From a virus: a DNA stretch of 28,894 bases. Below are positions 14,982-25,404 of this stretch, piece by piece (within the stretch, counting starts at the first letter, position 1; every line of letters begins with the position of its first letter). Below the pieces are notes generated by a model that searched no databases, was not told the origin of the DNA, and saw nothing but the letters and a program-made list of their open reading frames with translations. The translations under genes and the position numbers were made by a program. The DNA is taken from positions 1 to 28,894 of the IMG/VR virus record IMGVR_UViG_3300047297_000042; one strand, given 5' to 3'.

Positions 14982-15449
14982 TTATCCGATAAATTTCATA
15001 AGCATTGGAAGTATCTTGGTTATGATAGCGCCGATAACGATACCACCACCAATCATAATATACTTGGTTTTTTCCAATTTGTCAATACGGTTTTTATGTT
15101 TTTCTTCTTCTTTATCGACAGAACCCTTCAGTTCTTTGATAGCAGAAAGAAGTTTATCTTCAGTGGACTGAATTTTTGCTTCAAGTTCTCTGGTAGTAGT
15201 AGTGATACGCGAATGTAACTCGGCGTTACTTGCCTGTGTTTCTTTACGGTGCACTTCTAAACTTTGGTAAATATCTTCGTTGACATTTTCTTGCCTCTCC
15301 AGTTTAGTATCGTGCACCGCAAGCATTTTGTTGATACAGTTGGAGACGTCGCCGATCTTTTCAATCGCCACATCTAGGCGACCGAACACAACCTGCACTT
15401 GCTTCAGGTCATGCTCAAGAACGGCGACTTTTGTCTCCAACGTGTCCAT
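14982..15449 (-). CDS. Coiled-coil protein with C-terminal membrane anchor
   Basis: About 125 residues of heptad-rich, charged sequence (from LETKVAVLEHDLKQVQ to KNRIDKLEKTKY) are followed by one C-terminal hydrophobic helix, IMIGGGIVIGAIITKILPMLM. This makes it a tail-anchored protein with the bulk on one side of the membrane. The arrangement resembles XhlA-type accessory lysis proteins in outline, but without clear sequence identity. It is the last of a set coupled with the endolysin, so a lysis-related role is plausible. The start overlaps the EF-hand gene stop (TAATG). Confidence 0.65.
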   Translation of the reverse strand: MDTLETKVAVLEHDLKQVQVVFGRLDVAIEKIGDVSNCINKMLAVHDTKLERQENVNEDIYQSLEVHRKETQASNAELHSRITTTTRELEAKIQSTEDKLLSAIKELKGSVDKEEEKHKNRIDKLEKTKYIMIGGGIVIGAIITKILPMLMKFIG

Positions 15450-15642: not shown

Positions 15643-16818
15643 TTATCCCCATGCTGCGTATTGTTTGGTTTTCTTAATTCGATCATCGAGACCATGAGTA
15701 CCACCGTTTACACGACGAGTGATCTGTCCGATAACTGCATCACTCACACCCTTGTCAGCGATTGCAAACAGGTTGTTCTTACGGAAGAACCACAATGCTG
15801 ATTCGAATGCAAGTTCAGTCGCAACGATATCTGGATTTGTCAGAACATCTGGTCTTCCAATATCTTGAGCGAATTGAGTGTAATTGCTCTTACCAGTTAA
15901 CTGGATCGGACCACGTCCACGGAACTTCCATCCATCACCTGAAGATTCTGGTCCATTACCCATGCGATTAGCATAAACCTTGTTGGCAATCTTCTCTGGT
16001 TTACGAGCATATCCAGCAGTCGATGCGATTGTTGGGAAATACTTCTTGAAGATACCGTTGAGTCCCTTGTCTGAATAGTTCAGGTTCTCTGAGAATACCT
16101 TAAATCCACCTGACTCGTGCGCACACTGACCGAAGAAGTGTGCTGCTTGTGAAGTCGAAAGTTTGAAGTAATCTTTTGCTGCCTTGAAAGTTCCTGGACC
16201 CCACTTACCATCAGCGGCGACACCACACTTCGCTTGAAGTGCTGCCATTGGACCAAGACCAGATACATTCGCTGCTGTTTTTGTTGCTGCCTTAGCAACC
16301 TGAGCAACTGCTTGAACGGGTGCACCTGCTTCCTTGGTAGTGCTTGGATCAAAGTCCTTAACTGGTGTGTAAGATGTTCCACCTGACTTAGACTTGGTAG
16401 CGATCAGACGTTGACGACGATTGCCACCTTCTTTCTTGATCGATGCATGCACCCATCCAGAGTTCTTGTCACCTGCAGTGTAGAATTCCAGAATGACTTG
16501 GTCAAACTCTAGATTATCTGCCACCCAGTCTGCTACGACCTTGTTCGAAACACCTTGGACTTCAAAGTCAATCGCTTGACCATTAACGTGCTGGGATGTT
16601 TTCGATCCACCAACTGCCTTATTAACCAGTGGTGCGCGATACGAAGAGTTGACTGTAACTGGTCCAAACTTAGCACGAACAGGTTCGAGAATCTTTTCGC
16701 AGCAGTAGCGCATGTTCTCAATATGTTCAGCAGTTGGTGTGTTAGGAATACCAAGACGCTTTGCGGTTGGTGAGACAATCATCTCTGCTAGTGTAAAATG
16801 TTCAGTTAGTTGTGTCAT
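15643..16818 (-). CDS. Bifunctional endolysin: M15 peptidase plus GH19 glycosidase
   Basis: Residues 1-135 are an M15-type peptidase (D-Ala-D-Ala carboxypeptidase/L-alanoyl-D-Glu endopeptidase fold) with zinc ligands His77, Asp84 (SQHVNGQAIDF) and His124 (GWVHASI). An Ala/Thr/Lys linker (about 140-185) leads to a GH19 domain resembling chitinase or lysozyme. CGVAADGKWGPGT opens it, Glu235 in AHESGG and Glu244 in SENLNYS are the catalytic pair, and FRGRGPIQLTGKSNY is the classical GH19 signature. It should cut both peptide cross-links and glycan strands of peptidoglycan. There is no signal peptide, so it needs a holin. The start is coupled by TAATG to the two-helix membrane protein. Confidence 0.88.
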   Translation of the reverse strand: MTQLTEHFTLAEMIVSPTAKRLGIPNTPTAEHIENMRYCCEKILEPVRAKFGPVTVNSSYRAPLVNKAVGGSKTSQHVNGQAIDFEVQGVSNKVVADWVADNLEFDQVILEFYTAGDKNSGWVHASIKKEGGNRRQRLIATKSKSGGTSYTPVKDFDPSTTKEAGAPVQAVAQVAKAATKTAANVSGLGPMAALQAKCGVAADGKWGPGTFKAAKDYFKLSTSQAAHFFGQCAHESGGFKVFSENLNYSDKGLNGIFKKYFPTIASTAGYARKPEKIANKVYANRMGNGPESSGDGWKFRGRGPIQLTGKSNYTQFAQDIGRPDVLTNPDIVATELAFESALWFFRKNNLFAIADKGVSDAVIGQITRRVNGGTHGLDDRIKKTKQYAAWG

Positions 16819-17270
16819 TAGAATGGTCCAAAATCGTCATCAGAATCTTTATACTTGTCAATCGCTGCCATCAGTTTGATTTCAGTATCTGCTTCGATCG
16901 ACTCTGCTTGCGCATTAATTACATGCGCTTCTGCTAGTGCTTTATGATCAGTCTTACCCAGTTCCTGGACCTTTACGTTAGGATCAAACTCAGAAGTCTT
17001 CATACCCATCATAGTTGCGAATGCACCAACGAAGGCACCTACGATTGTCGAGAATGCAGGTCCAATAATCTTGAAGATTTCATTGTTGTCGATTGTCTCG
17101 TTTGGAACAAACAGACCAATCATCATTGTAACAACAACTGACATCATGATGATGCCTAGAATTGCTGCTGCCATCTTCATAATGGTAAGTTGGATCTTGC
17201 CCTTTTCGATTTCTAGTTCTTGAAGAGTATCAATCTCTTTTCCAACTGAGAAAAAATTTAACAAACTCAT
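16818..17270 (-). CDS. Two-helix membrane protein, holin candidate
   Basis: The 150-residue protein has two strong membrane helices, MAAAILGIIMMSVVVTMMIGLFV and a second in IIGPAFSTIVGAFVGAFATMMG. An N-terminal charged helix precedes them, and the C-terminal tail is acidic and helical, ending DSDDDFGPF. This topology and the direct coupling to the endolysin gene favour a holin or holin-like role. Similar proteins are present as unnamed membrane proteins in cyanophage-like genomes. The tail of about 60 residues is longer than in most holins. AAGGA lies six bases before ATG. Confidence 0.5.
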   Translation of the reverse strand: MSLLNFFSVGKEIDTLQELEIEKGKIQLTIMKMAAAILGIIMMSVVVTMMIGLFVPNETIDNNEIFKIIGPAFSTIVGAFVGAFATMMGMKTSEFDPNVKVQELGKTDHKALAEAHVINAQAESIEADTEIKLMAAIDKYKDSDDDFGPF

Positions 17271-22563: not shown

Positions 22564-24621
22564 TTATTTCTTCCTCGCTCTAGCATTTTTGATTCTTGAT
22601 TGCTCAAGTTTACGAACTGCTGGCATAACTCTTATTGATAGACGAGCAACCATTGGTGCCATACGCTTTACTTGCGCTTCTAGTCTTGTCTTTTCTGCTG
22701 CAGATACAGTTGAGATATCGCGATTGCGAAGTAGTCTCTTGTAAACCATGCGACGAGCAGCACGAATAGATCTCGACTTAATCTTTTCTGGTGTCGAGAC
22801 ACGTTTGATTGCAATATTTCTTGCCATCATACGACGACTCTTTGTGCGCATCGCATTAAACTTTTTCTTCAAACGACCAGCAGGAGTGATTGCTTCTTCT
22901 AGATCTTCTTCTTCATCGTCTTCCTTCTCAGGACTATCGACATATTCAATTTCATCTTCGTCATAGAGATCTACAAGATCTTCCCAACTGAGTGCTAGAA
23001 CATCTGCTTCGAGTTCCTTCTCGAATTCAGTTTCATCAAAATCTGAGAAACGAATATCGTCATCATCGTGTGAAATTACAGGGGAGATCTGATCACCAGA
23101 ACCTCTGTGTGCTTCGTAGGAATCAACATGGTGTGTTCCCATCTCAGCAGTGTCACACATCTGGCAGCAGTCAGGAGTTCCGCAGTTTTCGTGGACTGCT
23201 TCAGCAATAGTCTTCATGAATTCAGAGTGAGATTTATGAGCACGCTTCTGTAGTGCTTCTTTTTCAATCGCAGACTTGGCAGAGTTATACTTCGACATGA
23301 ATACATCTGCGTGATTGGGAGCAATAGTGTGGTGCGATCCATCTTGGAAGTGAACCTTCGAACCAATGCTTACTGCCTTACGTAGTTGCATTACAAGGTG
23401 GGCAGGTTCTTTTGCTTTTTCTTCTGCCTTCTTCTTAGCGATTGCTTTCTTTGCTCTCTTGATATTTGCAGGATCAGCGAGAACCTTTTGTACTCTTGCT
23501 TGGAACTTAGCACGTGCTTCAGCACCCTTCGCAGAAATCTCAGCAAGATAACCTTCACGAACAGGATGCAGACCAAGATGCTGAGTTGTTACATCATCAT
23601 AGCGTGGATCGAAAGTTGGAATCTTATCCGCTGCCATACCTTCCTGACCTGGAGTCATAGCAGCAAACTTCTTGCGTAGTTCTGGACGACCCCATTCATT
23701 GTCCTTACCGAGGTCTTCTGGAAGAATTGAAGACTTAGTTACCTTCGACTTGAACATCTTATGATCAACACCGACTCTCTTAGCAGCAACCTTGTGAGCA
23801 TGAGCAGTGTTCTGTGCCTTAACGTGAACCGAACCAGCAGCAACTGCCTTACCAGCGTGTTGCTTAGGGAAGTCTACCTTCCACATGCCGTATGCTTCTT
23901 CGATCTCTACTTCTTCCTTGGCATAGACTTTATAGAGAGGATGCTTCATCGCCTTAACGTCTGCCTCATCCTTGGTTTTGTGTGTAGAAACAACTTCGGT
24001 TCCCTTCTTCACGACCCATCCTTCTTCCATCTGTTCTTCTGGCAGAATGAAACGATCCTTATCGATCTTGGCACCAGTCAATGGATCTTTCTTCGACTTT
24101 GCCTTTGCCTTCTCGATAATTTCTCTTGCTTCTGGTACGCAGTTAGGAACCATTCTATCGCCTTTCTTTTTCATGCCGACACGCTTGTAACCTTTCCAGC
24201 ATGCTTCTTCAACGGATTCTTCACTGACCGAACGCCATCCGCCACCCTTTGACTTGTAATACTTTGCTGCCCAACCATTGGCATACGCAGAAGGATACAC
24301 GTCGAACTTCTTCTTTGCCATTGCCTTTGCTCTTGACCAAAGTGCTGGGTTAGTAGGTTCGTTCCCTTCTGGGATAAATTCTTCTGTATTCACCATGATT
24401 GGTTTATTTCCTTTACCTTTACGATCAGCAACTGGATCTTCTCTTCTTTTTCTACGAGCAGCAGTCGCCCTATCTTGCTTTGACATTGATTTTGCTTTGG
24501 CAGCAGGTAGGCATTTAGGTTTACCCTCGCCATCCTCTCTTGCACATGGACCTTTGATCTCGCCCTTGGTGTCCATTCGCACCCACTTCTGACGAAACCA
24601 AGTTCTTAGATCCTCGTTCAT
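22564..24621 (-). CDS. 685-residue mosaic phage protein with DUF5872-like module and basic tail
   Basis: Several phage modules are joined in this one protein. Residues 5-65 have W-x3-KWV, PCAR, PKCLPAAKA and a basic stretch. Residues 90-130 (NPALWSRAKAMAKKKFDVYP, SAYANGWAAKYYK) match DUF5872. Residues 139-164 form a CWKGY ... VPNCVP motif. A Cys cluster (ENCGTPDCCQMCD) occurs further on. An acidic segment (about 540-580) precedes a strongly basic helical C-terminus (about 582-685). The N-terminal modules are elsewhere separate phage proteins, often of the internal-head type. It may be a prohead core or co-packaged protein. It is coupled to the spanin gene by ATGA. No enzyme motif is seen. Confidence 0.65.
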   Translation of the reverse strand: MNEDLRTWFRQKWVRMDTKGEIKGPCAREDGEGKPKCLPAAKAKSMSKQDRATAARRKRREDPVADRKGKGNKPIMVNTEEFIPEGNEPTNPALWSRAKAMAKKKFDVYPSAYANGWAAKYYKSKGGGWRSVSEESVEEACWKGYKRVGMKKKGDRMVPNCVPEAREIIEKAKAKSKKDPLTGAKIDKDRFILPEEQMEEGWVVKKGTEVVSTHKTKDEADVKAMKHPLYKVYAKEEVEIEEAYGMWKVDFPKQHAGKAVAAGSVHVKAQNTAHAHKVAAKRVGVDHKMFKSKVTKSSILPEDLGKDNEWGRPELRKKFAAMTPGQEGMAADKIPTFDPRYDDVTTQHLGLHPVREGYLAEISAKGAEARAKFQARVQKVLADPANIKRAKKAIAKKKAEEKAKEPAHLVMQLRKAVSIGSKVHFQDGSHHTIAPNHADVFMSKYNSAKSAIEKEALQKRAHKSHSEFMKTIAEAVHENCGTPDCCQMCDTAEMGTHHVDSYEAHRGSGDQISPVISHDDDDIRFSDFDETEFEKELEADVLALSWEDLVDLYDEDEIEYVDSPEKEDDEEEDLEEAITPAGRLKKKFNAMRTKSRRMMARNIAIKRVSTPEKIKSRSIRAARRMVYKRLLRNRDISTVSAAEKTRLEAQVKRMAPMVARLSIRVMPAVRKLEQSRIKNARARKK

Positions 24622-25130
24622 TTCTTTTCTTTCTTATTCAGTTCGTCGATGGACTGTTTATTGTCGTTGATCCACTGTTGCAAACTGATAAGTTGTTGAC
24701 TGTTTTGCATGCATCTGTTGTAATTGTTGATGATGGTGAAGAGGGCTTCATTGTCTTTAATTCCAGAGGGGGACGCATCAGAACTGAGGGTGGGGTCGGC
24801 ATCACTGCCTGTGGCACTAGCGTCGTGCGTGAACACCCAGCCGTTAGACATAACAGACTGACTAGGAACATTGTTTTTGGCGCGATCAAGGTAGACATAT
24901 TCTTTTTCCTTAATTGTATTGACACGGTCGACATATTCAGTAACTACTTTATTGCTGATCTCAGCATTTTTCTTTTCCATTTCTGCTACTTGTGTTGCAG
25001 ATTTGGCAGCAAATCTTTGCAGTTCTGCTTCAGCATAAGCAGATCCCTTCATATAACCAAATACAAATACTCCGAGTAGGAGAGCAGCACCTGCTAGTAA
25101 CTTATATGGTAATGGGATCATACCGAACAT
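24618..25130 (-). CDS. Inner-membrane spanin subunit (i-spanin, Rz-like)
   Basis: A 170-residue protein with one N-terminal membrane helix (KLLAGAALLLGVFVFGYMKG). A long heptad-rich periplasmic segment follows (AEAELQRFAAKSATQVAEME and on to about residue 85), then a variable region and a C-terminal amphipathic part. The topology is that of lambda Rz. With its outer-membrane partner it spans the periplasm and fuses the two membranes at the end of lysis. I chose MFGMIPLPYKL because AGAGGA lies seven bases upstream; the frame continues 35 codons up into the holin-like gene. The o-spanin gene lies wholly inside this one. Confidence 0.85.
   Translation of the reverse strand: MFGMIPLPYKLLAGAALLLGVFVFGYMKGSAYAEAELQRFAAKSATQVAEMEKKNAEISNKVVTEYVDRVNTIKEKEYVYLDRAKNNVPSQSVMSNGWVFTHDASATGSDADPTLSSDASPSGIKDNEALFTIINNYNRCMQNSQQLISLQQWINDNKQSIDELNKKEKK
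24638..24898 (-). CDS. Outer-membrane spanin lipoprotein (o-spanin, Rz1-like), embedded
   Basis: This frame starts MSTLIAPKTMFLV and continues with a hydrophobic stretch to the lipobox Leu-Thr-Ala-Gly-Cys22, so signal peptidase II would leave a lipidated Cys22. The residue after it is Ser, not Asp, which directs outer-membrane sorting. The 65-residue mature chain is proline-rich near its start (PQAVMPTPPS, MRPP), as in Rz1. AAGGA lies eight bases before the ATG, which argues for real translation. A second ATG (24871) is possible but would shorten the signal peptide. Full embedding in another frame of the i-spanin gene copies the lambda Rz/Rz1 arrangement. This is the only overlapping-frame shadow here with independent protein evidence. 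Confidence 0.88.
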   Translation of the reverse strand: MSTLIAPKTMFLVSLLCLTAGCSRTTLVPQAVMPTPPSVLMRPPLELKTMKPSSPSSTITTDACKTVNNLSVCNSGSTTINSPSTN

Positions 25131-25152
25131 ATCAATTTCCTCTTGTTTCCTA

Positions 25153-25160
25153 TATTTATT
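25153..25160 (-). promoter_or_regulatory. Late-promoter-like octamer AATAAATA
   Basis: Seven of eight bases match the late octamer. It spans the holin-like gene stop codon and lies 23 bases before the i-spanin start. It could add late transcription of the spanins, or be chance. Confidence 0.3.
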
Positions 25161-25404
25161 CTTCGTCAGATTTCTTGGTTGGTTTCTTTGGTGCGAACTT
25201 CTCAACACCAGTAATACCAAGAGTACCGATAACAATATACATTACACCATTGAAGATAAACTCTTCGATAGTGTAGCCCCAGAATAGATTAGCAATGTAA
25301 CCAGTGGCGATAAGGATTGTTGAAACAACAGCAACCATTCGCTTGGTTGATGGATTACCACCATCTGACATCATGTCTTTAAGGTATGTTAGAAAGTTTG
25401 CCAT
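25156..25404 (-). CDS. Holin-like two-helix membrane protein
   Basis: In 82 residues there are two hydrophobic helices (MVAVVSTILIATGYIANLFW and FNGVMYIVIGTLGITGV), with a short charged N-terminus containing DGGNPSTKR and a Lys/Glu C-terminal tail. The GNPSxKR segment before helix 1 is common in small phage holin-like proteins. With spanins directly downstream, this is the better holin candidate of the two in the window. The ribosome binding site AAGGAG six bases before ATG is the strongest in this region, suggesting high expression. Confidence 0.65.
   Translation of the reverse strand: MANFLTYLKDMMSDGGNPSTKRMVAVVSTILIATGYIANLFWGYTIEEFIFNGVMYIVIGTLGITGVEKFAPKKPTKKSDEE

Follow-up and report, generated by a model that had tools for sequence, protein, structure and literature searches.

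A predicted embedded two-component spanin in a probable T4-like phage, from a family in which the o-spanin gene lies inside the i-spanin gene or just downstream of it

The window analysed here, a 28,894-nucleotide stretch of viral DNA (IMG/VR record IMGVR_UViG_3300047297_000042), contains on its minus strand a spanin-like gene inside which a second, 86-codon reading frame is open. Is this inner frame a gene, do the two frames encode the i-spanin and o-spanin of one lysis system, and how did such a nested pair come about in its family? The reading that we put forward, with a probability of about 0.94, is that the locus encodes a two-component spanin, and that the pair belongs to an old family of embedded spanins that occurs in P2-like prophages and T4-like aquatic phages, and in which the o-spanin moved out of the i-spanin gene at least twice and the inner frame then decayed. 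Together the two nested genes very probably encode the pair of membrane proteins by which the outer membrane of the bacterium is opened at lysis. They and the signals of the inner gene are as follows.

24618..25130, minus strand: i-spanin gene, 170 aa counted from its ATG; the protein starts MFGMIPLPYKLLAGAALLLGVF
24638..24898, minus strand: o-spanin gene, 86 aa, wholly inside the i-spanin gene in the +1 frame; the protein is MSTLIAPKTMFLVSLLCLTAGCSRTTLVPQAVMPTPPSVLMRPPLELKT...
24899..24914, minus strand: Shine-Dalgarno-like site of the o-spanin gene, ATTAAGGAAAAAGAAT, directly before the inner ATG and within i-spanin codons
24833..24847, minus strand: lipobox region LTAGC, in which the cysteine is residue 22 and the codon of this to-be-lipidated cysteine is 24833-24835

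The 170-aa outer protein finds Rz-like spanins among its PHROG matches (PHROG 8821, Rz-like spanin, E 2.6e-9). Its single hydrophobic, predicted transmembrane segment is N-terminal (residues 5-23), and its AlphaFold model, of low confidence (mean pLDDT 54, with a low-confidence linker), comprises the membrane helix, a long helix at residues 32-87, a linker at approximately 88-122 and a C-terminal helix at 123-168. This modelled layout is also the one published for lambda Rz (PMC5295617). The outer protein thus combines one N-terminal transmembrane segment with a periplasmic domain that is helical in a low-confidence model, as an i-spanin does. Its only cysteine, Cys140, is present in 49 out of 49 distinct genes from close relatives (see below).

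The inner gene stops 20 nt ahead of the i-spanin stop and occupies approximately 0.45-0.96 of the i-spanin length, close to the range in which embedded spanins usually lie (Kongari et al. 2018, PMC6139136). A preliminary description of the window had credited this gene with its own ribosome binding site, a signal peptide, the lipobox LTAGC and a proline-rich mature part, and each of these is present, with AAGGA 8 nt upstream of the inner ATG. The lipobox has Thr at position -3, and so passes the PROSITE PS51257-type rule but fails the strict form L-[AS]-[GA]-C; that Thr is not the commonest residue at this position speaks against an embedded two-component spanin. The conserved o-spanin stretch LVPxxxMPTPPxxLMRPP is encoded opposite the i-spanin linker, and this recalls a complementary pattern that has been described for Rz and Rz1 of lambda (PMC5295617). 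One relative (L198) has His at position -4. Among relatives the C-terminus of the o-spanin varies in length (positions 24680-24709 of the window; L002, L031, L032, L039, L046, L069 and L080), and an extra pair of o-spanin cysteines (mature residues 43 and 52) is restricted to the long forms, while Cys140 of the i-spanin does not vary. A requirement for two cysteines is reported for PseT.2 of T4 (PMC6139136).

Taken alone, the window sequence is suggestive of an inner gene and no proof of it, because when the i-spanin protein was held fixed and synonymous codons were shuffled within the gene or redrawn from window codon usage, a +1-frame ATG ORF of at least 86 codons arose by chance in 3.3% (shuffled) or 12.2% (window codon usage) of the trials, and a lipoprotein-like +1 ORF in 2.5%. 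The relatives provide the stronger evidence. From 80 loci of viral contigs together with the window we obtained 49 distinct complete genes, and the inner frame, its start and its lipoprotein-like signal are kept in all 49, compared with an open inner frame expected in 27% per gene under synonymous randomisation. This conservation is far beyond chance and bears out the embedded 86-codon o-spanin that had been proposed; a check for stops in the inner frame of relatives, suggested at the same time, revealed none. Under the PS51257-type prolipoprotein rule, a lipoprotein-like ORF is found in the +1 frame of 49/49 genes and in the +2 frame of 0/49. Further ATGs in the same frame lie upstream, and only the one at i-spanin codon 78 is common to the 49 genes; the Tyr codon 78 that creates it is TAT in every one, against a TAT share of 66% among all Tyr codons.

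Both frames are under purifying selection, which the preliminary description had proposed to look for among related phages. Divergence at fourfold sites of the i-spanin gene is 0.464 in codons 1-76, falls to 0.149 in codons 78-145 and is 0.607 in codons 146-163, which lie beyond the inner stop in most members. The drop in third-position divergence over the overlap is highly significant (p = 3e-10), with first and second positions unchanged. Both frames are real and selected, and both carry spanin membrane signals and family matches. We infer that the two genes are expressed and the o-spanin lipidated, and that the proteins form a complex and fuse membranes. The outer frame would give an inner-membrane i-spanin with a helical periplasmic part, and, by analogy with lambda Rz/Rz1, the i-spanin and o-spanin would join via their C-terminal parts across the periplasm. 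Once the endolysin has cut the peptidoglycan, the pair would fuse the inner and outer membranes, as in lambda, leading to phage release.

A wider search returned family members whose +1 frame is closed and which have a homologous lipoprotein gene just downstream. Among 99 distinct i-spanins, 79 have an embedded o-spanin (all +1), 19 have a downstream one, and one is undecidable since its contig (L228) ends early; the 19 comprise 18 recognised by profile and L205, whose downstream copy is in the i-spanin's own frame and outside the profile count. No locus among the 99 has both an inner and a downstream o-spanin. The downstream genes mostly overlap the i-spanin stop by approximately 4 nt, those of L205 and L256 being approximately 180 nt away. 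In L405 the inner lipoprotein frame runs on into the C-terminal sequence of the i-spanin, as if the frame had shifted, which may reflect either a mutation or an error of sequencing.

For the nearer lineages, embedded and separated members are 48-60% identical in their i-spanins and 41-53% in their o-spanins, and since these values exceed the 40% identity threshold of Kongari et al. 2018 (PMC6139136), they form one family by that criterion. Comparison of the embedded with the separated profiles gave a probability of 100 (E 1.7e-45) for the i-spanins and 97.9 (E 4.8e-13) for the o-spanins, and the two architectures have homologous versions of the i-spanin segment that houses the inner gene. Both architectures also have as neighbours a holin-like protein, a coiled-coil membrane protein and a T4-type primase. 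The separated-type contigs are fragments in which gp23 was not found, so that their phage type is read from primase synteny only. Kongari et al. 2018 reported no family that mixes the embedded with the separated architecture (PMC6139136), and full-text literature searches, whose scope left aside subscription papers, supplements and later SpaninDB updates, yielded no report of an embedded-to-separated spanin transition. Judged by these sequence comparisons, the mix of architectures in one spanin family is new with respect to Kongari et al. 2018.

In which direction did the change go? A tree of 72 i-spanins requires three architecture changes, one of them resting on the long-branch row L325, which we set aside as a third separated origin on account of its branch. 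A second tree, built after removal of the overlap columns and the longest rows, requires two changes; the bootstrap trees all give two (range 2-2), and none gives one. In the AU test, rejection of a single separated origin is borderline (p = 0.054). The first separated clade (L213 and its kin) is sister to the embedded L203, and the second (L200, L253 and L256) is nested in the clade that holds the window. L203 has a second embedded relative, L332, and the two differ at 32 third positions over the 76 codons that precede the overlap, against 7 over the 70 codons within it. In the first separated clade, fourfold divergence rises from 0.37 ahead of the region equivalent to the overlap to 0.48 within it; therefore the constraint is gone. 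In each of the 67 relatives from bacterial genomes, the o-spanin profile finds its match within the i-spanin gene, in the +1 frame. Because no decayed remnant of the inner frame was detected in the separated members (mean z 0.33), the direction from embedded to separated depends on the tree and on segment homology: the stretch of the i-spanin in which the inner gene lies has its homologue in separated members too, and this is most simply explained if the o-spanin was copied out of an embedded ancestor.

The data favour an embedded ancestral state, and the trees suggest two or more origins of the downstream state within embedded clades, where the o-spanin would have moved just downstream and the inner frame would then have decayed. 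The opposite order, with separated genes ancestral and embedded later, or an ancestor with both copies followed by differential loss, would agree with the preference of Kongari et al. 2018 for separated genes as primordial (PMC6139136) and with the missing inner-frame remnants in separated members. We consider it unlikely, as the outgroups are all embedded, no locus with both copies was found, and embedding of a downstream gene cannot produce a homologous i-spanin segment together with homologous inner and outer o-spanins. Convergence on the PPxxLMxPP motif could make the separate and embedded o-spanins look alike, and lambda Rz1 does weakly resemble the embedded profile (hhalign probability 69.6), but such convergence is quite improbable given the o-spanin profile match (probability 97.9, E 5e-13) and the location of both architectures in one genomic neighbourhood; moreover, all downstream o-spanins of the L213 group have that of L203 as their nearest embedded counterpart, with match scores of 106-127 versus at most 104 for other embedded ones. 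That the inner frame is a mere by-product of i-spanin codon use can appeal to an ORF length that is unremarkable in one genome (P 0.03-0.12; lipoprotein-like 2.5%), but it is refuted by the synonymous-site pattern, the third-position suppression lying exactly over an inner frame that is intact in 49/49 genes, occurring nowhere else, and being absent where the o-spanin sits outside the i-spanin.

It is thus likely that the family breaks the published rule that the architectures never mix, in that an ancestrally embedded o-spanin moved out at least twice, third positions of the i-spanin were freed, and L203/L332 (embedded) and the L213 group (separated) represent the transition at one syntenic locus. 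As no family in the survey of Kongari et al. connected embedded with separated members, the formation or break-up of nested pairs could not be followed. With homologues of both spanins available in either architecture at a single syntenic locus, one can directly measure what nesting costs and in which order the events took place.

The preliminary description had also taken the region for a complete holin and spanin block. This stands as far as an 82-aa ORF with two predicted transmembrane segments is concerned; the ORF has no holin family match in Pfam, PHROG or NCBIfam models, and the endolysin candidate is encoded elsewhere.

25156..25404, minus strand: holin candidate, 82 aa, two predicted transmembrane segments, upstream of the i-spanin gene
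15643..16818, minus strand: endolysin candidate with Peptidase_M15_3 and GH19-type domains, 8 kb from the spanin block

Homologues of the 82-aa protein occur near the spanin in 17/19 separated and 33/79 embedded genes (some flanks being short), and it is a plausible, unproven holin candidate. A rival holin candidate, of 150 aa with two predicted membrane segments (16818-17270, minus strand), lies directly upstream of the endolysin gene with a 1-base overlap. A 155-aa coiled-coil protein with a C-terminal membrane segment (14982-15449, minus strand) adjoins the endolysin and the primase; it weakly matches a PHROG named hemolysin (E 1.3e-4), and its homologues adjoin the spanin in phage Cr30 and in separated-type loci. 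The gene directly upstream of the i-spanin (25131-25404 in the window) varies widely in close relatives (holin-like, nucleotidyltransferase-like or structural), as if the spanin pair moved as a cassette.

An embedded two-component spanin is a known kind of lysis system, and the preliminary description had called the locus a copy of lambda Rz/Rz1. The window shares with lambda the embedded +1 architecture, a signal anchor paired with a lipoprotein, and a Pro-rich o-spanin. Homology in both frames is lacking, as lambda Rz has no detectable homology to the i-spanin (hhalign probability 1.1) and Rz1 is only weakly similar to the embedded o-spanin profile; both frames match Burkholderia phage AP3 and Caulobacter phage Cr30 instead. 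The best annotated i-spanin matches are T4-like Cr30 (E 8e-18) and the P2-like Burkholderia phages AP3, Carl1, Mana and KS5, and the closest annotated pair is that of the P2-like phages (AP3, KS5), not that of lambda. The LysB/LysC-type genes of AP3 and KS5 resemble those of the window by homology in both frames (for AP3, tblastn E 2e-13 with the i-spanin, and hhalign probability 96.8, E 2e-10, between the inner protein or its profile and the annotated o-spanin), by the +1 register and by the motif PxxLMRPPxxL. They differ in belonging to temperate P2-like phages with their lysis genes in one cassette, and in an N-terminal part of the i-spanin that the window protein does not match.

The window phage itself is probably T4-like, judging from the T4-type gp23 in 6/6 long relatives and from the DNA primase that the window encodes; the window, a fragment, showed no gp23. 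T4 has in PseT.3/PseT.2 a two-component spanin as well, with scattered lysis genes as here, but its architecture, compared by published class only, is separated (Kongari et al. 2018, PMC6139136). Embedding in a T4-like phage is not new, the Cr30 spanins having been listed in 2018 among the embedded ones, as singletons (PMC6139136). In Cr30 (gp058 plus an inner ORF), a T4-like phage with an embedded +1 o-spanin, both proteins are homologous to those of the window (i-spanin, 30% over 98%, E 8e-18; o-spanin, 34%). Unlike in the window, the mature C-terminus of the Cr30 o-spanin is shorter and lacks the extra cysteine pair, and the counterpart of the holin candidate is encoded far from the spanin, between tail genes. 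The inner ORF is missing from the annotation of the Cr30 record, in agreement with the earlier expectation that annotation pipelines drop such frames. The spanin pair of the window is thus a well-supported addition to a known class, whose genes annotation again misses.
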